A stretch of DNA of 64,000 nucleotides, taken from contig CALEDJ010000032.1 of the NCBI GenBank assembly GCA_937951485.1, positions 62,001 through 126,000 of the forward strand, in the 5' to 3' direction. The notes beneath the pieces are model-generated. The model was not told the origin of the DNA and made no database searches. It was given only the letters and a program-made list of their open reading frames with translations. Numbering within the stretch: position 1 is the first letter of the stretch; every line of letters starts with the position of its first letter. The DNA is from an uncultured bacterium. Lineage in GTDB: Bacteria > Hydrogenedentota > Hydrogenedentia > Hydrogenedentales > CAILVY01. Below are positions 4,377 to 33,819 of the stretch, piece by piece. The position numbers were made by a program, and so were the translations under genes.

Positions 4377-5225
4377 ATGTCCTTTATTGATTTGCATTTG
4401 CACAGCAACCACTCGGACGGATCCGATTCTCCGGATCGTGTTGTGGCGCGCGCGTCGGCCATGGGCATCTCCGGTATGGCATTGACGGACCACGACACGG
4501 TTTCCGGTGTCGCAGAAGCGGAAGCCTCGGCAGGAAAAGCCGGCATGGATTTCCTGACGGGGGTGGAAATCACCGCGCAGTTTGATGGACAGGAAATCCA
4601 TGTCATCGGCCTGGGCGTGGACACTGGATGTGGGAAACTGTTGTCGCCGCTGAAAAAAAACGAAATGGCACGCAATGAACGCGCCGCGCTCGTGCTGGAA
4701 AAACTCGCCCAGTGTGGCATTGTCCTGCCGCCGGACCTTCTGCGACGATATGCGCGCGGCGCCGCCGTCAGTCGCATGCATATTGCCCGCGTCCTCTGCG
4801 ACCTCGGAATCACCACAAGCACCCAGGAGGGGTTCGACCGTTTCCTGAATTCGGGACGCCCAGCCTACGTCCCAAAGCGGTTAATGCCGGTGGAAACGGC
4901 GATTGCGGCTATTCATGATGCGGGGGGACTCGCCTTCGTTGCACATCCCGGGCTGAGCCGCAATGTGCGCCGACTCCTGCCGCGACTCGTGGAACTTCCC
5001 TTTGACGGCATCGAAGCATACCACATCAGCCACAGCCAGTCTGCCACGGGCGATTTTCTGAAGTTTGCGGCAACCCGCAGGTTGCTTGTTTCCGGCGGCA
5101 GCGACTGTCATGGCATTATCAAAGGCGCACCGGAAATGGGCAAAGTCCGCGTGCCCTGTGAACGGCTGGGGCCGATTCTTGACGCCTTGGCAGCACGTGC
5201 AAGATTTCCCCGACAAGTCAATTGA
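4377..5225 (+). CDS. PHP-domain phosphoesterase (YciV/RNase AM type)
   Basis: Metal-dependent phosphoesterase of the PHP superfamily, closest in pattern to YciV-like enzymes that hydrolyse 3',5'-bisphosphate nucleotides or trim RNA 5' ends. All metal-binding blocks are visible: DLHLHSNHSDGS, LTDHDTVSG, GVEITAQFDGQEIHVIG, FVAHPG and SGGSDCHG. The 282-residue length is normal. It begins 12 bp after nusB on the same strand, so it probably ends the rib/nus operon. Its 3' end overlaps the convergent coiled-coil gene by 8 bp. The exact substrate cannot be read from the sequence. Confidence 0.88.
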   Translation: MSFIDLHLHSNHSDGSDSPDRVVARASAMGISGMALTDHDTVSGVAEAEASAGKAGMDFLTGVEITAQFDGQEIHVIGLGVDTGCGKLLSPLKKNEMARNERAALVLEKLAQCGIVLPPDLLRRYARGAAVSRMHIARVLCDLGITTSTQEGFDRFLNSGRPAYVPKRLMPVETAIAAIHDAGGLAFVAHPGLSRNVRRLLPRLVELPFDGIEAYHISHSQSATGDFLKFAATRRLLVSGGSDCHGIIKGAPEMGKVRVPCERLGPILDALAARARFPRQVN

Positions 5226-8200
5226 CCACCGGGGTCACCTCGCAATAGGGCATGTCGTAACGCAGCAGAACCAGCCCTTCTTGGGAGATGCCTGTGTTGG
5301 CGATATGCAGACGGCGCAGGGCGCTCATAGCCTTGATTCGGGGAATGCTGGCGTTTGTAATGCGCGCCTGGTTGATCCACAGGTGTTGCAGGTGTCTGAA
5401 ATTGTCAAATACGGCGAAGCCCCCATCGGTCATCGCGACATCATACATTTCGATTTCGCGGAGCATGGTCATGCGTTCCAGATGCTTCAACCCCTCGTCC
5501 GTCACGCTGGTGCGCACCAGATGCAGGCTGCGCAATCCGGTCAGATTCCGGATATATGCCAATCCTTCATCCGTTACCTTGTCGCCCACCAGTTCCAGAC
5601 TTTGCAGGTCGTTGCTGCTCAGCAGGCTGAGCGGGCGCAAATCCGCCCCTGCGTCATAGTCCACCGCCAGTTTGACCTGCGTGCCTTCTGGAATCTGCAC
5701 ATCGCCGCGTGCGTACGAAAATTCCTTCCACGGATCGCTGCCCACAGGACTCCAGGGCCGCGTCAGAATTCGCCCCATGCTCCGGTCCTGCGGGAAATGC
5801 AGCACCCGTGCGGGCGGCCGCGCAGTGGTTTCCGCGATAACCACCGATTCCGGGGGTTTCACGCTGATTACGCAGAAAGGGAGCGCCTCTTGGATGGCGG
5901 TCTTGTCCCGTTCGGAAGTCTCATGATCCACATAGAGTTCCCGTAACTCGTTCAAATGGGCAAGATGCGCCAGATTCTCATCTGTAACCTCGATACGCGG
6001 CAGCCAAAGGGACTTGATGATGCGCGGATTCAGCGCCGCCAGCGGCGATAAATCGTCTGCCGCTTCTTCCAACATCTTCAGGTGAATCGCCAGTCCGGTG
6101 CGCACGGAGACGTTGCCGCGTGCGTCCGCGAACGGCTCCCAATCCTTCGGATCCACAGACTGCGCATCACGCGCATACAATGTGCCTATGGACCGGTCTT
6201 CCGGAAAGGACAGCGTAATCACGCGAGATTCCCCGATTTCATCCTCCGCCCCGCGCCAGATGCCTTGCCAACGCATAAAGAGCACAACGACAGACAACAC
6301 GATGACGGCCACAAGCGCCGCTGTCACCAAGGGAGATTGACGCCTGCCTGCGCGCGCACGCGATAGCAGATATTCCGAACGCGCCAAGGCCTCATCGCGC
6401 TGATCCAGCCGGTCCTGGAGTTTTTGCATTTCCAGCCGTGCTTCTTCAAGCCCGCGCGATTTTTCTTCCTGTTGCCGCCGCAGTTGCTCCAGTTCCAATT
6501 CAATATCCCCTTGCGAACTGGCGGCGTCGTGCGTCACGTTGCGCAGGGATTCCAGTTCTGCCTGAAGACGCGCGATGGTTTCCTCATTGCGCTTTTTCTC
6601 TTCGGCGGCTTTACCGGCGGCGCTTTCGCGCTCCCGCAACAATGATTTGAGCCCCTCCATTTCCTTACGGGCCTCTTCAAGCGCGCGCACATGGGCGGAT
6701 TCGTTTTCTTTTAACTGGGAAAGTTCGCCGAGCAGGTCCTGTTCTGAACGCCGGGTCTGCTCGGTCTGCGCTTTTAGTGAGGCCAATTCCCGTTGGAGGT
6801 TCTCCATGGCCGCCTGGGTCTCCGCGCCACTCTGGGCAACGGCTTCCATTTGCGCCTCCCGTTCTTTCAGCGTGGACCGCAGCCGATCCATTTCCGCGCG
6901 GGCTTCCTCCAGGGCGCGGCTCTTGGCCGCTTCGTTGGCCCGCAGTTGCTCCACTTCGTGCGCCAGCGCACTTTCCGAAGCGGATGCGTGCTCCGCCTGA
7001 GCACGCAACAACTCCAGTTCCTCGCGTAGCCTTGCCGCTTCGGCATCATGCTGCGAACCGCTTTCCTCGGCTTTGCTCACGGCGGCCTGTTGCGCGCTCA
7101 ACTGCGCCCGCAATTGCTCCAGTTCCCCGCGTGTGCCGTCCAGTTCCCGGGCCTTCTGCGATTCGTTGGAACGCAGCACCTCGATTTCATGCACCAGATG
7201 CTTTTCGGATTCGGCAAATTCCTGGGCTTGTGCGTTTAGCGAAGCCAGCTCTTCCTTCAGGGCCGCCAATGCCTCGGCGCTCATCGTGCTCCGCTGTTCC
7301 GCATCGGAAAGACGCGCTTCTTTTTCGGCCAGATGCTTCTGGAGTTTCTCCATTTCTGCGCGCATCGTTTCCAGGGATCCGGCCTTGCGCGATTCGTTCG
7401 CGCGCAACTGTGCCACTTCTTCGGCCAGACGCCTTTCCGATTCGGCGGCGCTTTCCGCCTGTTTGTGAAGCGTTTCCAGTTCTTTGCGCAATGCCGCCAG
7501 CGCCGCTTCGCTTTCGCGGCTGCGACTCTCGGCTTCCAAGGCGGCGCGTTCCCGATCTGCAAGCGACGCGCGCACATTTTCCAGTTCGCGGCGTGCCGCC
7601 TCCAGGGCTTCGCTCTTGCTGCGCTCATTGCCGCGCACCTGCTCCAGTTCCCGCAAAAGCGCCTGCTCGGAACTGGTGGCATGTTCCGCCTGTCCCCGCA
7701 GCGCATCCATTTCACGTTGCATTGCCGTCATGGCCGCTTCGCGCTCAGCGTTTTTCGCTTCCGCCTCAGCAACCGCGCGCTCTCTCTCGGTCAGTTTCTC
7801 CTGCAATTGCGTCAACTGGCTACGCGCTTCGCTCAACGCTTCGTTCTTCTGATCTTCCTGCCTCTTCAAACGCTCCAGTTCGTCATGGATGCTCTTCTCG
7901 GAATTGGCGGCGTTTTCCGCTTTCTCATGCAGGGCGACCAATTCCTCCTCCAACTTCAGCATAATGCGCTCATGGGCTTCAGTTTCACGAGCGGCCTCAG
8001 CCAGCGCCCTTTCCCGGTCCGCCAACGCCTTTCGCAGAGATTCCACTTCGGCGCGGGCTTTGTCCAGCGCTTCTGATTTGCTCTGTTCCCGTTCCCGCAG
8101 TGCCTGCAACTCGGATTGAAGTGTTTGCTCGGAGGCGGAGGCCGCGCTGGCCTTTGAAGTCAACGCCGCCAATTCCGCTTGCAGCATATCAATCTGCTGG

Positions 8201-8571
8201 AGCAGGCGCTGCTTATCCGCATCATCCGTCCGAAAACTCTCAAGCGATGCACGCAGTGCGGCGCCGGCGTTCTCCTGCAGGGAAACAGCCGACTCAAGCC
8301 GTTCGCGCTGCGCCGTATCCAGCATGTCGGAAAGCGCAGCGGCATTCTGCCGCAACGTCTTTAAAGAATCCGTCCACGCGCCGATTGTATCCATCGCCTC
8401 CGCCGTCTTGCCCAGCCCCGCAAAGGATTCCGCCTTGACCCGAAGAAGTTCCACAGAACAGAATCCGGCGTCCTCCAGCGCAGCAATCGCTTCCAAGGCC
8501 TCCGAATATCGTCTGTTGCGGCAATGCTCAATCGCCGTTTGATAATGCTTCTCACTGACATCAAGTTGCAT
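5218..8571 (-). CDS. Giant coiled-coil membrane protein with duplicated LRR module
   Basis: A 1117-residue protein of unknown function. Residues 1-130 are helical and TPR-like (YSEALEAIAALEDAGF). Residues 133-741 are seven full plus one partial copy of a 77-residue repeat, each starting E[LM]xxL and holding a core like RANEAAKSRALEEARAEM; 77 residues are exactly 11 heptads, so the coiled coil stays in register. A single transmembrane segment follows at about 748-766 (LVTAALVAVIVLSVVVLF). The C-terminal part holds two related modules (FPEDRSIGTLYARD and FPQDRSMGRILTRP), each followed by leucine-rich repeats of the TDEGLxxLxxLxxL type. It lies alone on its strand, divergent from the MshEN/HDOD gene. 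Topology suggests a long cytoplasmic rod with an exported LRR head; this is inference. Confidence 0.85.
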   Translation of the reverse strand: MQLDVSEKHYQTAIEHCRNRRYSEALEAIAALEDAGFCSVELLRVKAESFAGLGKTAEAMDTIGAWTDSLKTLRQNAAALSDMLDTAQRERLESAVSLQENAGAALRASLESFRTDDADKQRLLQQIDMLQAELAALTSKASAASASEQTLQSELQALREREQSKSEALDKARAEVESLRKALADRERALAEAARETEAHERIMLKLEEELVALHEKAENAANSEKSIHDELERLKRQEDQKNEALSEARSQLTQLQEKLTERERAVAEAEAKNAEREAAMTAMQREMDALRGQAEHATSSEQALLRELEQVRGNERSKSEALEAARRELENVRASLADRERAALEAESRSRESEAALAALRKELETLHKQAESAAESERRLAEEVAQLRANESRKAGSLETMRAEMEKLQKHLAEKEARLSDAEQRSTMSAEALAALKEELASLNAQAQEFAESEKHLVHEIEVLRSNESQKARELDGTRGELEQLRAQLSAQQAAVSKAEESGSQHDAEAARLREELELLRAQAEHASASESALAHEVEQLRANEAAKSRALEEARAEMDRLRSTLKEREAQMEAVAQSGAETQAAMENLQRELASLKAQTEQTRRSEQDLLGELSQLKENESAHVRALEEARKEMEGLKSLLRERESAAGKAAEEKKRNEETIARLQAELESLRNVTHDAASSQGDIELELEQLRRQQEEKSRGLEEARLEMQKLQDRLDQRDEALARSEYLLSRARAGRRQSPLVTAALVAVIVLSVVVLFMRWQGIWRGAEDEIGESRVITLSFPEDRSIGTLYARDAQSVDPKDWEPFADARGNVSVRTGLAIHLKMLEEAADDLSPLAALNPRIIKSLWLPRIEVTDENLAHLAHLNELRELYVDHETSERDKTAIQEALPFCVISVKPPESVVIAETTARPPARVLHFPQDRSMGRILTRPWSPVGSDPWKEFSYARGDVQIPEGTQVKLAVDYDAGADLRPLSLLSSNDLQSLELVGDKVTDEGLAYIRNLTGLRSLHLVRTSVTDEGLKHLERMTMLREIEMYDVAMTDGGFAVFDNFRHLQHLWINQARITNASIPRIKAMSALRRLHIANTGISQEGLVLLRYDMPYCEVTPVVN
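6349..8175 (-). repeat. Seven full and one partial copy of a 231-bp coding repeat (77 aa each)
   Basis: Inside the coiled-coil gene the protein splits into units starting at residues 133, 210, 287, 364, 441, 518, 595 and 672. The first seven are exactly 77 residues, and the eighth runs about 70 residues into the membrane segment. Units are diverged in DNA sequence but share position-specific features such as ASEQ/SSEQ/SESE near position 14 and NExxKxxxLExARxEM near positions 29-44. The exact spacing points to growth by tandem duplication of an 11-heptad block. Confidence 0.85.
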
Positions 8572-8762
8572 GCGCTTTCGTTCCCTTCAGTGTCCCGGGA
8601 TAACCGTTTTGTTGGCGACAAAACTCGGACGTGGCAACAAAGGCCATATCTAGTGTAACATAAACAGTAGGTGAAGATGAGACAGTGACGCCGAGTGTAT
8701 CGGTTTGATAGTTTAGATCGCAACAATACGACTCGTTGGATGGGGCTGCCAAGGAGAGAAGC

Positions 8763-10214
8763 GTGGCCAAAGACGCTGAGCATATCATTGTTACCTGCCG
8801 GTGTGGACAAAAAATGAAAGCGCCGGCGGAAGTCAAGGGAAAGACATTCAAGTGTGTACGCTGCGGCGAAGCCGTGCGCGTGGGCGAAGCGCCGCCCGCC
8901 GCCGCGCCTCCGAAAAAAGAAAAAGACGCGGGGGACGCACCCCCCACCGAACCTATCGGACAATTACTCATACAGGCGGGGCTGCTCACGGCGACTCAAC
9001 TCGAAGAAGCCCTGGCAAGACAACGGAAATCCGGCGGTAGGACTTTCGAGAATCTTATTGCCCTGGGACATCTCACCAAAGAGGCGCTCCACGAGTTCCT
9101 GTCGCGCCAACCGGGGGTGGCGACGATCGAACTGCGTCGTTTCGAAATTGACCGCAAACTGGTGGAAATCGTCCCCAAAGAAATCGCACAGGAAAATCTC
9201 GTCCTCCCGATAGACCGCCTTGGCAAACTGCTCACCGTGGCCATGGCCTGCCCCCTCGACCGCGCGACCATCGAAAAAGTGGAAGAGATCACCGGGCTGA
9301 AGGTCAAAGCCGTCCTATGCAGACTGGACGATATTCATGCTGCTGTAAAGCGGTACTATCCAAAATCGGATGCCATTCGGGTGCAAGATATTCTGGATGC
9401 CACTCCGGCGAAGGTTGTGGGGCCGAAAAAGGATTGGCGCGTTGCGCTTGACACCCTGATGGCATTGCCCCTGGATTCCGATGTTGTCACCCTGATCCGT
9501 GAACTTGCGCTTTCGGAAGAGCCGGATTTGCGTATGCTTGCCGCCACTGCCGCCACGGATACCAGCGTGGCCGCCGCCCTGTTGCGTTTGGCCAACAGCC
9601 CCATATACGGCCTCTCGAAAACCATAGACTCGGTCCCCATGGCAGTAGCCGTACTCGGAAAAACCGGGGTATTATCCGCACTCGACGGGGGGGACAACAC
9701 CTCGCTTCCATCAGTCCCGGAAATCGCCCGACTCCGCAAGCGGGCCTGCCTCTGCGCTGAAATCGCAGCCGCACTGGCCAAGACAAGCGGTCGGGTGGAG
9801 CCCGGCGCAGCCTATACAGCCGGATTACTTCTTGAACTCGGCTCCCACGCGCTCGCCGCCGTCGCGCCCGACGAATACCTGCGTGTCAATCCTGACACCG
9901 GGGGCGTTGCCCGAAATGAAGCGGAGATTGAAGTAATCGGCATTGGTCATTGCGAAGCGGGGTATATCATGGCCTCGCGCTGGCAGTTTCCCGAATCCCT
10001 CTGTGTGGCGATTCGCCGCTATGCGGACATCGAACACGCCCCCACCGACCAGGACCTCGTCCACGTCGTCGCCATTGCAGCCTTCTTGACTTCCTTGAAG
10101 GCGACCCCGTCCCCGGAAGAAACCGCTGCGTGGCGTAAATCCATGACCATCCTCGCTCTCGACCACGCTGCCTTGACCCGTGTCTATAAGGAAATCACTG
10201 GAGCCTCTGGATAA
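8763..10214 (+). CDS. Zinc-ribbon / MshEN / HDOD regulator
   Basis: A 483-residue three-domain protein. Residues 12-34 hold a small zinc ribbon (CRC and CVRC pairs). After a Pro/Ala/Lys linker, residues 64-150 match the MshEN (T2SSE N-terminal) pattern, IGQLLIQAGLLTATQLEEAL then FENLIALGHLTKEALHEFL, a fold that binds cyclic di-GMP in some ATPases. From about residue 225 comes an HDOD domain (PDLRMLAATAATDTSVAAALLRLANSPIYGL). I chose GTG at 8763 because AAGGAG at 8751-8756 lies 6 nt upstream; an ATG at 8736 is in frame without such a site. It is divergent from the coiled-coil gene and 3.3 kb upstream of the pil operon. A regulatory role is inferred. Confidence 0.82.
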   Translation: MAKDAEHIIVTCRCGQKMKAPAEVKGKTFKCVRCGEAVRVGEAPPAAAPPKKEKDAGDAPPTEPIGQLLIQAGLLTATQLEEALARQRKSGGRTFENLIALGHLTKEALHEFLSRQPGVATIELRRFEIDRKLVEIVPKEIAQENLVLPIDRLGKLLTVAMACPLDRATIEKVEEITGLKVKAVLCRLDDIHAAVKRYYPKSDAIRVQDILDATPAKVVGPKKDWRVALDTLMALPLDSDVVTLIRELALSEEPDLRMLAATAATDTSVAAALLRLANSPIYGLSKTIDSVPMAVAVLGKTGVLSALDGGDNTSLPSVPEIARLRKRACLCAEIAAALAKTSGRVEPGAAYTAGLLLELGSHALAAVAPDEYLRVNPDTGGVARNEAEIEVIGIGHCEAGYIMASRWQFPESLCVAIRRYADIEHAPTDQDLVHVVAIAAFLTSLKATPSPEETAAWRKSMTILALDHAALTRVYKEITGASG

Positions 10215-21442: not shown

Positions 21443-23257
21443 TCAATCCCGCGACACGACGTAGAGCGCCTCTTCGGCGAACAGATTGGGCCAATACTGG
21501 ATTACCCCTTCAGCGGTCAGGGGAATCTCCTTTTCAATGCGAACGCCCAATTCTTTGCAGAAACCGCGAAAATCCTTGAGTGAGAGCATGTGCCTGTTTG
21601 GGGATTGATACCAGGCATAGGGCAGATTCCGGGTGACCGGGGCGCGCCCGAAGACCAGCGTTTTCAGGCGCACGCGCCACAATCCGAAATTGGGAAAACT
21701 TACGATGCATTTCCTTCCGACGCGGAGCATTTCCCTCAATACCAAATCCGGCTTCTGAATAACCTGCAGGGTCATGCTCAGCAGAACATAGTCAAAACTG
21801 TTGTCCGGAAGCCTTCCAAGACCTTCATCAATGTCGGCGTGAATCACGGATATACCGCAACCGATGGCGCTGACCACCTTCTCCTGGCAAACCTCAACAC
21901 CCACCCCCTTGACCTGCTTCTGGCGGTCAAGCCGACACAGCAGTTCACCGCCGCCGCAACCGATGTCCAGTACCCGGCTGCCCGGTTCCACAAGGTCCAC
22001 GATGAGGTCATAGTCCACGCGGCGGCTGCTGTAAATGCTGTCCGGTGTCGCGGTCGGCGGGTCATAAGTAATCTTGGATGCATTATCAATGCAACGAACA
22101 CAGGGACGCTCCGGGTGAAACGTATGCTTCAGGAAACCTTCCACAACCTTGGTCATCACGTCCACTTCCAGGAGAAATGCGTCATGTCCGTAGTCGGATT
22201 GGATGTTACAGTAAGTTACGTCCTTTTTCTGGCGCGCAAGTGCGTACACGATTTGCTCGGACTGATATGGCGGATACAGCCAGTCTGAGGAAAATGAAAG
22301 CACAAGCGTTTTCGCCTGCACCTGGGCCATCGCGGCGTCCAGTGAGCCATACTTCGCGGAAATATCGAAATAGTCAATCGCCTTGCTTACGTACAGATAG
22401 GTATTGGCGTCGAACCGGTTGACAAATTGCGCACCCTGGTGATCAAGATAACTCTCTACCTGAAATTCCCGGCCCATGTCGAAACGCAGCGTGCCGTTTC
22501 CCTGCAGGCGGCGCCCAAATTTATGGCGCATGGACTCGTCAGAGAGATAGGTGATGTGCGCAAGCATCCGGGCAATGGCCAGACCCCGCTCCGGACGTGC
22601 GCGGCTGCTGTAGTATTCCCCGTCCTGAAAACTGCCGTCTGCCTGGATGGCGTGTCGGCCCACCGCATGAAAAGCGATCTGTTGCGCCCCGCTCAGGTGC
22701 GTCGTGGAAATGAGCAGCGCAGCGCGCACCATGTCCGGAAATCGGACCGCCCAGTCCATCGCCTGCATCCCGCCCATCGAGCCGCCTGCGACCGCCAACA
22801 GGCGGTCAATCCCCAGATATCGGATCAGTTCACGCTGCGCTTTCACCATATCGCCGATGGTAACGAACGGAAAATCCAGGCCGTAGGGCTTGCCGGTCGC
22901 CGGATTGATGGACGACGGCCCCGTAGACCCCATGCATCCGCCCAGCACATTGGAGCAGATCACAAAGTATTTCTCTGTGTCAAAGGCTTTGCCCGGTCCG
23001 ACCATGGTGTCCCACCAGCCGGTCTTTTTGTCGTCGGGATGATGCTTGCCGGCCACGTGCGCATCGCCGGATAGAGCATGCAGGATCAGCACCGCATTCG
23101 ATTTGTCTTCATTGAGCGCCCCGTAGGTCTCATAGGCGAGCGTAATCGGTCCCAATTTCGCGCCGCTTTCCAGCACCATTTCATTGGGCGGTTCCGCAAA
23201 GGTGAAATATTGGGTCTTGACAATGCCCACCGACCCTGGTTCAACCGTCGCATTCAT
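21443..23257 (-). CDS. metX: MetX-MetW fusion: homoserine O-acetyltransferase plus methyltransferase-like MetW
   Basis: A 604-residue fusion. Residues 1-380 are an alpha/beta-hydrolase homoserine O-acyltransferase with nucleophile Ser160 in AGGSMGGMQA, Asp325 in SSDWLYPPYQ and His358 in DYGHDAFLLE. Residues of about 405-604 are MetW, with VLDIGCGGGELL (429-440), DNSFDYVLLSMTLQVI and the MetW-specific LPYAWYQSPNRHMLS. MetX activates homoserine for methionine synthesis; MetW is needed for full MetX activity in some bacteria where the genes are adjacent. It follows cysK and metY on the minus strand, 57 bp after metY. No clear ribosome site is visible, so it may depend on coupling. Confidence 0.92.
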   Translation of the reverse strand: MNATVEPGSVGIVKTQYFTFAEPPNEMVLESGAKLGPITLAYETYGALNEDKSNAVLILHALSGDAHVAGKHHPDDKKTGWWDTMVGPGKAFDTEKYFVICSNVLGGCMGSTGPSSINPATGKPYGLDFPFVTIGDMVKAQRELIRYLGIDRLLAVAGGSMGGMQAMDWAVRFPDMVRAALLISTTHLSGAQQIAFHAVGRHAIQADGSFQDGEYYSSRARPERGLAIARMLAHITYLSDESMRHKFGRRLQGNGTLRFDMGREFQVESYLDHQGAQFVNRFDANTYLYVSKAIDYFDISAKYGSLDAAMAQVQAKTLVLSFSSDWLYPPYQSEQIVYALARQKKDVTYCNIQSDYGHDAFLLEVDVMTKVVEGFLKHTFHPERPCVRCIDNASKITYDPPTATPDSIYSSRRVDYDLIVDLVEPGSRVLDIGCGGGELLCRLDRQKQVKGVGVEVCQEKVVSAIGCGISVIHADIDEGLGRLPDNSFDYVLLSMTLQVIQKPDLVLREMLRVGRKCIVSFPNFGLWRVRLKTLVFGRAPVTRNLPYAWYQSPNRHMLSLKDFRGFCKELGVRIEKEIPLTAEGVIQYWPNLFAEEALYVVSRD

Positions 23258-30722: not shown

Positions 30723-31011
30723 TGAGGATGTGGCAAGTTGCCGCATGTACATGGGCGAATAAAGCGGACGCGGCATCCTGCCGCGTTCCCTGCGTGCGGA
30801 TTTGGAATGTGATGAATGACTTGTTTCCCGACCTGGCACGGAACGCTCAATGGCAACAACGCCCGGGCGTTGTGCTGATGCAGATGTTGTTCGGTCATGG
30901 GGGATGGAGGATGGGGACTGGGGCCGATATCGGGGTGTGGGAACGGCTTTATTCAGGCTGTCGCGGCATGGCATACTTGAGGCAGTAACAACGCCAAGAT
31001 TTTCCGGGACA

Positions 31012-33819
31012 ATGACCACACAAAATCATCTCCGCAGACGCATTGCGCTGTATGTGATTCCGATTCTCATCGGGATGGGCGGCATTGTCTTTTCGCAGCA
31101 GTGGGACAATCTGGTCATCCGCAGTCTTATGCTGCTGGCGTCGGTTTCCGTGCCGCTTTTCGCCGGGGGGACCCTTTGGGTGCGATTTCACGCGGGGCGG
31201 CTGGAGCGGCTCATCCTGCTTGGCGGCATACTGCTGCTGATTGGGGGGGCGACGCTGAGCGTCTCGGGCGTCTCGGATGTCATCCGGGAACAGCAGGCAT
31301 TGTCCGATTTCGCGGAGGACCTGCTGCGTTTTCTGGGCGCGTTCAGCCTTCTATTGGGGTTGTTCGTGGTGTTGTACATGGTGGTGCGCACGGGAGAGGA
31401 CCTGAGCGAAATTGCGGAACGATTCCGTCACCTGGCGGAGCACATCTCCGAAGGACTGATCCTGAGCAGTGCGGACGGTGTGATTTTTCTGGTGAACAAC
31501 CAGTTCCTGGAGATGTTCGATTTGCGCCGCGAAGACGTGATTGGCCGCAACTCCTCCGAGTTGGCCCTGTCGCTCAAGGCGGACCGCATCGCTGAAGAAG
31601 TCGAAAAACGGGGATTTGGCATTGCTTCCGAGTATGAGTTGACGTGGCGCGTGCACGGCGAGGAGCGCCGCTTCTGGTTCAAAGGCGCACCCATTTATGA
31701 CCGACACGGCCGGCATACGGCCATCCTCGCTACCGTCCGCGACATCACCGAGCATCACCGCCTGTCGCAGCGGGTGGAACGTTACGCGCAGGGCCTTCAG
31801 AAACTCGTGGAAGAACAGACCCGGAAACTGCAACAGTCGGAGGAACGGTTCCGGCAACTGTTGCTGTCCATGAACGAGGGCTTTCTGACGATTGATGCCG
31901 AGCACCGCATCCGGTTTGCCAACGACCGCATCTGCAAGATGCTGCGGGTGTCGCCGGAAAGCATTCTCGACCGGGTGATTTTCGATTTTGTGGAGCCCAT
32001 CAGCCGGGTGCGCCTGATTAATTTATTTGCGCAGGGTGCGTCTGCGAGCCGCGCGGAATTGCGACAGGAATTGACATTTGTAGACAGCGAGGGGCGCCCT
32101 GTGCCGAGTCTGACGGCCATCACGCATATCGGACCGGGCGGCGCCAATGATCCGGCCTTTTCGCTGGTGATCACCAATCTTGCCGAACAGAAGCAGATGC
32201 AGCACCAGTTGGAATTGCGGGCGCGGGAACTGGAGCGGGTCAACGAAGAACTCCGCCTGCACGATCGCGCCAAGGACAGTTTCCTGTCAAATGTCAGCCA
32301 TGAACTGCGCACGCCCCTCAGCACCGTTCAGGGTTACGTGGAAATGCTCGAATCAGGCAGTTTGGGTGAAATTCCCGACCCGCAGCAAAGCGCGGTACGA
32401 ATCATGAAACGGAACGTCGAGCGGCTTGCCGCGTTGATCAATGAGATGATCGAATTCAGCCGGATGGAGATTCGGGGGGTACAGATATCCGCTGATCTTT
32501 TCAGTCCGGCGCGTCTCGCCCGCGAAGCCGCCGCGTCCATCCACCCGCTGACCCTGGCAAAGGACATCAGCGTCAACGTTTTTGTGGAGGACCACCTGCC
32601 ATACGCCTGGGGCGATCGGGAAAAACTGGCGCAAGTGCTCGGCATTCTTCTGAACAATGCGGCGAAATTCACCGACCCAGGCGGCATGATCCAACTCCGG
32701 ATGTCCAGCGCCCGGGAAGAAAGCCTCGTCATCGCCGTGTCCGACACCGGTATCGGCATTGACCCGGCGCATCATGAAAAGATTTTTTCCAAGTTTTACC
32801 AGGTGGACAGTTCGAAAACCCGGCGCTACGAAGGGGCGGGCATCGGCCTCTCCATTGCCAAGAGCATCGTTGAGTCGCACCGCGGGCACATCGAGGTGGA
32901 AAGCGTCCCCGGCAAAGGAAGCACCTTTACGGTAACCCTGCCGCATGCGTTGTTGGCCATAGACTGCGCCCCGGAAGACCTCGAGGATTTTTCACGATTG
33001 CGCGTGTTGTGCGTCAATCCCGTTCCCGAATCGCACGCGGCCATCACGGCCTTTCTGGAGGGCGCAGGCTGCGCCGTGCGGTCCGCGCCAAACGGCTATG
33101 AATGTTTCCGCATCGCCTTGGAGACACAGCCCGACCTTATCATCATGAGCGAAACCTCTGAGGTGGAATCACACGAGGCCATATCCCAGTTGCGCCAACA
33201 TGAAGTCACGGAACACACGCCTGTCATTATCATTGTGGACGCCCAATCAGACACCATTGCGCCGAAGGCTGTCGCTTGGGAGGCTGTTCACCAACTGAAA
33301 CGGCCTTTCCCAGTCAAGACCTTTGTCGAGCATATCCGCGCACTGTGCTTTGGCGAACCCATCCTTCTTCCCGATGCGTCGGGCGAAGAAAGCGCCGAAG
33401 TGGAGTTCCGGCCCCACGTATTGGTTATTGACCATGACCCCTGTTTGCTTGAATGGATAGAGATGGCCCTGCGCCATCGCCACATTCCCTTCAGCGGCGC
33501 GAGCGCCGCCGCCGAAGCCCTGAAAATCGCCGCGCAACAGCCCGCCGATATTATCTTTCTTGATGTGGACACGCGCGGCGCGCGTGCCTTGGAAGAATCG
33601 GGGCTGCTGCTCAACCACGACAGCACCCGCCACACGCCTTTGTATATCATGACCGGATTGCCGGACAAGGCGCCGCCGGTCAACGGCGTCGCCGGCATAC
33701 TCCGAAAACCTTTTGCCATCGAGGAATTCATTAAAATCGTACAGGACGTCGTCCGCCGGAAAACCCGTACCATGGACCGCAGCCAGGGCGCTGCGACCGC
33801 GCAGACGACACCCGGTTAA
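31012..33819 (+). CDS. Membrane hybrid histidine kinase with two PAS and two receiver-like domains
   Basis: A 935-residue sensor. Four predicted membrane helices lie in the first 130 residues. Two PAS domains follow (HLAEHISEGLILSSADGVIF; LLLSMNEGFLTIDAEHRIRF), then HisKA with His430 in NVSHELRTPLSTVQGY and a HATPase with LNNAAKFTDPGG, SDTGIGIDPAHHEKIF and GAGIGLSIAKSIV. Two receiver-like domains end the protein. In the first, the phosphoacceptor position holds Ser713 (LIIMSETSEV), so it is probably inactive; the second keeps Asp851 (IIFLDVDTRG). I chose ATG at 31012, which gives MTTQNHLRRRIALYVIPIL; an in-frame extension to 30850 is unlikely. The stimulus is unknown. Confidence 0.88.
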   Translation: MTTQNHLRRRIALYVIPILIGMGGIVFSQQWDNLVIRSLMLLASVSVPLFAGGTLWVRFHAGRLERLILLGGILLLIGGATLSVSGVSDVIREQQALSDFAEDLLRFLGAFSLLLGLFVVLYMVVRTGEDLSEIAERFRHLAEHISEGLILSSADGVIFLVNNQFLEMFDLRREDVIGRNSSELALSLKADRIAEEVEKRGFGIASEYELTWRVHGEERRFWFKGAPIYDRHGRHTAILATVRDITEHHRLSQRVERYAQGLQKLVEEQTRKLQQSEERFRQLLLSMNEGFLTIDAEHRIRFANDRICKMLRVSPESILDRVIFDFVEPISRVRLINLFAQGASASRAELRQELTFVDSEGRPVPSLTAITHIGPGGANDPAFSLVITNLAEQKQMQHQLELRARELERVNEELRLHDRAKDSFLSNVSHELRTPLSTVQGYVEMLESGSLGEIPDPQQSAVRIMKRNVERLAALINEMIEFSRMEIRGVQISADLFSPARLAREAAASIHPLTLAKDISVNVFVEDHLPYAWGDREKLAQVLGILLNNAAKFTDPGGMIQLRMSSAREESLVIAVSDTGIGIDPAHHEKIFSKFYQVDSSKTRRYEGAGIGLSIAKSIVESHRGHIEVESVPGKGSTFTVTLPHALLAIDCAPEDLEDFSRLRVLCVNPVPESHAAITAFLEGAGCAVRSAPNGYECFRIALETQPDLIIMSETSEVESHEAISQLRQHEVTEHTPVIIIVDAQSDTIAPKAVAWEAVHQLKRPFPVKTFVEHIRALCFGEPILLPDASGEESAEVEFRPHVLVIDHDPCLLEWIEMALRHRHIPFSGASAAAEALKIAAQQPADIIFLDVDTRGARALEESGLLLNHDSTRHTPLYIMTGLPDKAPPVNGVAGILRKPFAIEEFIKIVQDVVRRKTRTMDRSQGAATAQTTPG

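Follow-up and report, generated by a model that had tools for sequence, protein, structure and literature searches.

A long rod protein encoded in the window (the whole stretch of DNA that was analysed, 64,000 nucleotides from an uncultured member of the Hydrogenedentota) is real, occurs throughout the phylum and is undescribed in the sources searched. Its gene, at positions 5218–8571 on the reverse strand (the strand of all its features given below), codes for 1117 amino acids from an ATG start and comprises, in this order, a TPR head, eight coiled-coil units of 77 residues, a transmembrane helix and two modules that each join a β-cap to a leucine-rich (LRR) stretch. As far as sequence and prediction reach, this architecture is secure. 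An earlier note on this DNA had not recognised it, and indeed searches of Pfam, NCBIfam and the PDB found no established family of the same domain order; the literature searched, which was covered in part, holds no account of such a protein in Hydrogenedentota. Coiled-coil matches to Pfam models (ATG16, GAS and MAD) stay under the models' own cut-offs and are driven by composition, and a search of the same genome with the whole protein returned the protein itself as the sole match. The protein matters because it is conserved, single-copy and syntenic, has a domain order not described before and belongs to an almost uncultured phylum. We infer its function below, taking the anatomy from sequence and models and the topology from charge. 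The coiled coil, the membrane helix and the duplicated LRR module of the earlier note are supported; what the note did not see is that the protein starts with a TPR head, is conserved throughout the phylum, varies in length by whole units and has a divergent HDOD neighbour.

Structure of the coiled-coil rod

The rod consists of eight ungapped units of 77 residues each (residues 127–742), with pairwise identities of 30–48%. Unit 1 is located at 7963–8193 (residues 127–203) and is followed by unit 2 (7732–7962), unit 3 (7501–7731), unit 4 (7270–7500), unit 5 (7039–7269), unit 6 (6808–7038), unit 7 (6577–6807) and unit 8 (6346–6576), the last of which has a lower score and ends at the membrane helix. 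The rod helix starts before unit 1, at 8194–8316 (residues 86–126), and is continuous from residue 86 to residue 202 in the model. The repeat had previously been counted as seven full units and a partial one, instead of the eight scorable units found here. The constancy of the units and their common register are borne out: adjacent units align without gaps, a single heptad register runs unbroken through all eight, and comparison of the rod with itself gives peaks at lags of 77, 154, 231 and 308 residues (37, 36, 33 and 32% identity, respectively), the next-best lags reaching only about 18%. Identity at lag 77 was 0.395, against 0.168 ± 0.016 (maximum 0.236; z 14) in 2000 shuffles of the rod's own heptads. 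The earlier account had been staked on unit lengths that stay constant on alignment and on the lack of an established family with the same order of domains; the lengths are constant, and no such family was found. Leu, Ile, Val or Met occupy 61% of the a and 48% of the d core positions, and a hendecad periodicity was ruled out, the power lying at 3.5 and not at 3.667.

The core of the unit is made of 22 positions, most of them of the Leu type. Ala predominates at positions 14, 17, 45 and 66, and four further positions are charged and conserved: 21 (E), 35 (E), 38 (K, 90%) and 59 (R). Sequence conservation in the unit is strong beyond the heptad pattern, and a set of charged residues in and beside the core (E21, R32, E35, K38, R46, R59 and E60) recurs across 306 units. 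Charged core layers usually set the register or the choice of partner at a cost in stability, and those of the rod may serve the same purpose. The rod is markedly acidic, with 22% Asp plus Glu and a net charge of −37 over 616 residues. Its calculated length is about 91 nm here (616 residues × 0.1485 nm) and about 80–160 nm in the orthologues, one unit corresponding to an axial step of 11.4 nm.

Domains flanking the rod

The head, at the N-terminal end (8335–8571, residues 1–79), is built of two helical hairpins. An AlphaFold2 model of residues 1–203 (mean pLDDT 92.7) contains a two-hairpin TPR head followed by a long helix, and a head profile made from 20 orthologues matched TPR proteins in the PDB (best E 3.3e-6), so that the confident model and the profile both identify the fold as TPR. 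The best Foldseek matches of the head model were likewise TPR domains, yet none reached E ≤ 0.001. In most orthologues unit 1 lies at a distance of 126 residues from the start Met, and the 126-column head alignment (20 sequences) has no gaps, against 27 distinct gap blocks in the C-terminal alignment; the 20 sequences were picked for a Met at 126 residues, and the constant length of the head therefore rests mainly on the Met-to-unit-1 distances and on full-length profile matches over residues 1–126.

A hydropathy peak at residues about 748–766 (6274–6330), preceded by RARAGRR, marks the transmembrane helix, placed between the rod and the LRR part as had been proposed from the sequence. It is the single transmembrane region of the protein, as in FimV/HubP. 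Of 38 orthologues, 33 have more Lys and Arg on its N-terminal side and four have equal numbers on both sides. This bias predicts a cytoplasmic location for the N-terminus and the rod and a periplasmic one for the LRR part, which supports the long cytoplasmic rod suggested earlier.

The C-terminal part was modelled by AlphaFold2 (mean pLDDT 87.7) as two modules, each composed of a five-stranded cap followed by LRRs. β-cap 1, which carries the motif FPxDRSxGTL..W..A.G.V, was delimited by alignment and model strands at 6073–6222 (residues 784–833), and LRR stretch 1 by the model at 5854–6066 (residues 836–906). β-cap 2 is found at 5662–5808 (residues 922–970; alignment and model) and LRR stretch 2 at 5221–5655 (residues 973–1117; model, PDB profile and VIA-align). 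Over 95 ungapped residues the modules share 38% identity (E 3e-18), in agreement with the twice-repeated leucine-rich module of the earlier note. Profile and fold both identify LRRs: the C-terminal profile matched LRR proteins in the PDB (E 4.4e-23), Foldseek also supports the assignment, and VIA-align superposed an F-box LRR protein (Z 17.5, rmsd 2.7, 168 aligned), the structural matches from VIA-align and Foldseek covering mainly the second module. No Pfam or NCBIfam model matched the β-cap, which gives this small domain an interest of its own.

Conservation and length variation in Hydrogenedentota

The first alignment made for a scan of public genomes was too divergent, and a five-sequence alignment was used; it retrieved four near relatives, all of them Candidatus Hydrogenedentota MAGs. 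Among 68 Hydrogenedentota genomes, the C-terminal profile found 44 at E ≤ 1e-45 and the head profile also 44, at E ≤ 1e-16, with one match per genome in each case. The union of both profiles gives orthologues in at least 51 of the 68, in single copy, and the genomes left without a match may reflect incomplete assembly, divergence or true loss. The head profile was run on 291 genomes and had no match among the 223 outside the phylum. The cap profile had one in the same 223, at G238:C72:19275-19451, within a frame of 224 residues. In three relatives (G019:C40, G013:C49 and G003:C213) there are long frames in which the LRR part finds many tandem matches, an apparent expansion of related LRR proteins that was not seen in this genome.

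A unit profile applied to 38 orthologues yielded 283 spacings, 279 of them of exactly 77 residues, two of 74 and two of 447, with none of 70 or 84. Both spacings of 447 are stray matches in family f4, which makes the unit counts of this family (about 6–7) less certain. The spacings of 74 residues, one each in L016 and L079, are consistent with a coiled-coil stutter, in which three residues are lost and the coil stays continuous. Unit number ranges from about 6–7 to 14 across the orthologues, in whole-unit steps only: there are seven units in families f7 and f10, eight in f1, f2, f3 and f8, 8–13 in f5 and 8–14 in f11. On a tree of 32 orthologues, unit number is clustered and needs nine changes, all of whole units, the least possible for its seven states being six. 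The best match of a unit between genomes of one family is usually the unit of the same index, and the units are therefore mostly old and keep their places. Recent whole-unit duplicates are found in some lineages, with unit identities of up to 0.97 (L086) and 0.82 (L025).

SMC was taken as a control; its length, too, hardly varies in these genomes (full matches mostly of 3543–3552 bases). Resistance to indels is therefore not special to the rod, and invariance alone is no proof of a ruler. What is special to the rod is that its length changes by whole copies of one 77-residue unit only. Such whole-unit variants provide a natural length series in which coiled coils can be tested as quantised rulers.

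Genomic context

The gene divergent from the rod gene (8736–10214, forward strand) encodes a protein with MshEN and HDOD domains (Pfam E 8.5e-18 and 1.8e-33, respectively) and an N-terminal Cys-rich, zinc-ribbon-like segment. The divergent pair is found in 25 genomes of ten families, with 116–382 bp between match edges; several of the other 19 rods are near contig ends. This conserved pair is the best evidence for a partner, and synteny points to the HDOD/MshEN protein as the best candidate client. Co-occurrence of the two proteins is unspecific, because 65 of the 68 genomes have HDOD/MshEN homologues (up to nine matches per genome), including genomes in which no rod was matched. The MshEN part of the neighbour scores 52.7 bits with the NCBIfam model c-di-GMP_motif (cut-off 38). 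In the c-di-GMP motif of MshEN as defined in PMC12943098 (two RLGxx...Q), the first Arg is missing here and in many orthologues.

The convergent neighbour (4377–5225, forward strand) is a PHP-domain protein that adjoins nusB/riboflavin genes, in conserved synteny. A link with type IV pili by adjacency was weakened, since PilM is nearly universal and pil genes are found beside the rod only in families f1, f2, f3 and f11. In three genomes of f11 (L016, L031 and L073) the PilM matches are split in two by an insertion. A link with cell division was also rejected, the FtsA-like neighbour having been seen in genus g19 only. In L022 and L023, which belong to this genus, the rod gene is near the FtsA-like gene and a tyrosine recombinase, away from the HDOD and riboflavin genes, and a PASTA-domain and LRR protein (L023:10903-12108, forward strand) lies directly upstream of the rod gene in L023. 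Elsewhere in the window there are an α/β-hydrolase (acyltransferase-like) fused with MetW (21446–23257, reverse strand) and a hybrid histidine kinase with PAS and receiver domains (30850–33816, forward strand).

Possible function

The layout of the rod protein corresponds to that of FimV/HubP read backwards, and for this reason we favour, tentatively and at somewhat less than an even chance, an envelope-anchored organiser or tether that would work in a FimV/HubP-like way with mirrored topology. It would then be a candidate envelope organiser from outside the Proteobacteria. The single membrane helix would anchor the bitopic protein in the inner membrane, with the periplasmic cap/LRR modules binding an envelope ligand, and the coiled coil, probably a parallel dimer, would reach about 91 nm into the cytoplasm, where the TPR head at its end may recruit clients such as the syntenic HDOD/MshEN protein. 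Rod length would evolve in steps of whole 77-residue units, gained or lost, probably because the heptad register and the conserved pattern of polar core residues would not survive most other changes.

With the LRR part outside, the head inside and a conserved divergent gene of regulator-like type, the protein could instead be a signal receptor, whose periplasmic LRRs would sense a ligand, the TPR head and the HDOD/MshEN protein receiving the signal through the rod. However, rods of 80–160 nm with conserved polar and alanine core patches would be poor signal transmitters, and a two-fold variation in rod length between species would be hard for a signalling register to tolerate, which makes a receptor quite improbable. 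The presence of the same charged core and flanking residues in every unit, over 306 units, would also fit rods that pair laterally at whole-unit offsets (11.4 nm) into filaments or bundles, forming a membrane-attached cytoskeletal layer; staggered packing of this type would need a fixed axial repeat. Against it, no clear periodicity of charge near 9.5 residues, as in intermediate filaments, was found in the rod, and we regard filament or bundle formation as rather unlikely.

A further explanation concerns what the period means, and it could hold alongside an organiser or tether. The 77-residue step may have no function of its own, the unit having arisen once and whole-unit duplication by unequal recombination being the easiest change that keeps the register, so that the rod would be a plain spacer. 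The nearly constant length of SMC in the same genomes indicates that coiled coils resist indels anyway, and recent whole-unit duplicates do exist (L086 and L025). Nevertheless, indels of seven residues would keep the register too, yet none of the 283 spacings is of 70 or 84 residues, and this, together with the strong conservation beyond the heptad, leads us to consider a functionless step somewhat unlikely. At the other extreme, the protein could be a phylum-specific molecular ruler, that is, a dimeric, membrane-anchored rod whose length comes in quanta of 77 residues (11.4 nm), with a polar core latch in each unit. This is a speculative and rather doubtful proposal; if it were true, rods would pair, or bind their clients, at set distances along the axis, and lineages would tune their reach by unit number.

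Comparison with known systems

Golgins are long cytosolic coiled-coil tethers, often anchored by a membrane helix (PMC5082667). The rod protein resembles them in layout only, by its long, predicted cytosolic coiled coil with a membrane anchor on the C-terminal side; in contrast to these eukaryotic proteins, it is bacterial and has a TPR head, a putative periplasmic LRR part and units of fixed length. Proteins of the crescentin/FilP type are, like the rod, long bacterial cytoplasmic coiled coils, whereas the rod protein has in addition a membrane helix, a TPR head and a predicted periplasmic LRR domain. The arms of SMC proteins, with natural lengths in steps of about 100 residues (PMC5344682), are also coiled coils under length constraint and in this respect a precedent for the rod, but the rod protein contains neither ATPase head nor hinge, would be membrane-anchored and has steps of exactly 77 residues. 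Membership of the SMC family was rejected: the score is 68.3 bits against a cut-off of 567, Pfam finds no SMC head, and the SMC of this genome is a separate gene.

The closest likeness in organisation is to FimV/HubP of the Proteobacteria, in which a wall-binding domain in the periplasm is joined through one membrane helix to an acidic cytoplasmic spacer and a TPR end that binds clients (PMC12918733); the cytoplasmic region of HubP also has repeats (PMC12918733), and FimV binds the diguanylate cyclase DgcP (PMC7033161). The rod protein was not accepted as a member of this family, given that Pfam and NCBIfam scans found no LysM, that its TPR is N-terminal and not C-terminal, and that its N-terminus is predicted inside. 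In place of a signal peptide and a periplasmic N-terminus, the charge bias puts this end in the cytoplasm and residues 1–79 form the helical TPR head. It further differs by having LRRs instead of LysM and, as its spacer, an ordered coiled coil made of units of exactly 77 residues. The acidic cytoplasmic region of FimV/HubP does have its counterpart in the rod, and the two proteins would have in common one membrane helix, a periplasmic binding domain and a long acidic cytoplasmic region with TPR at its far end.
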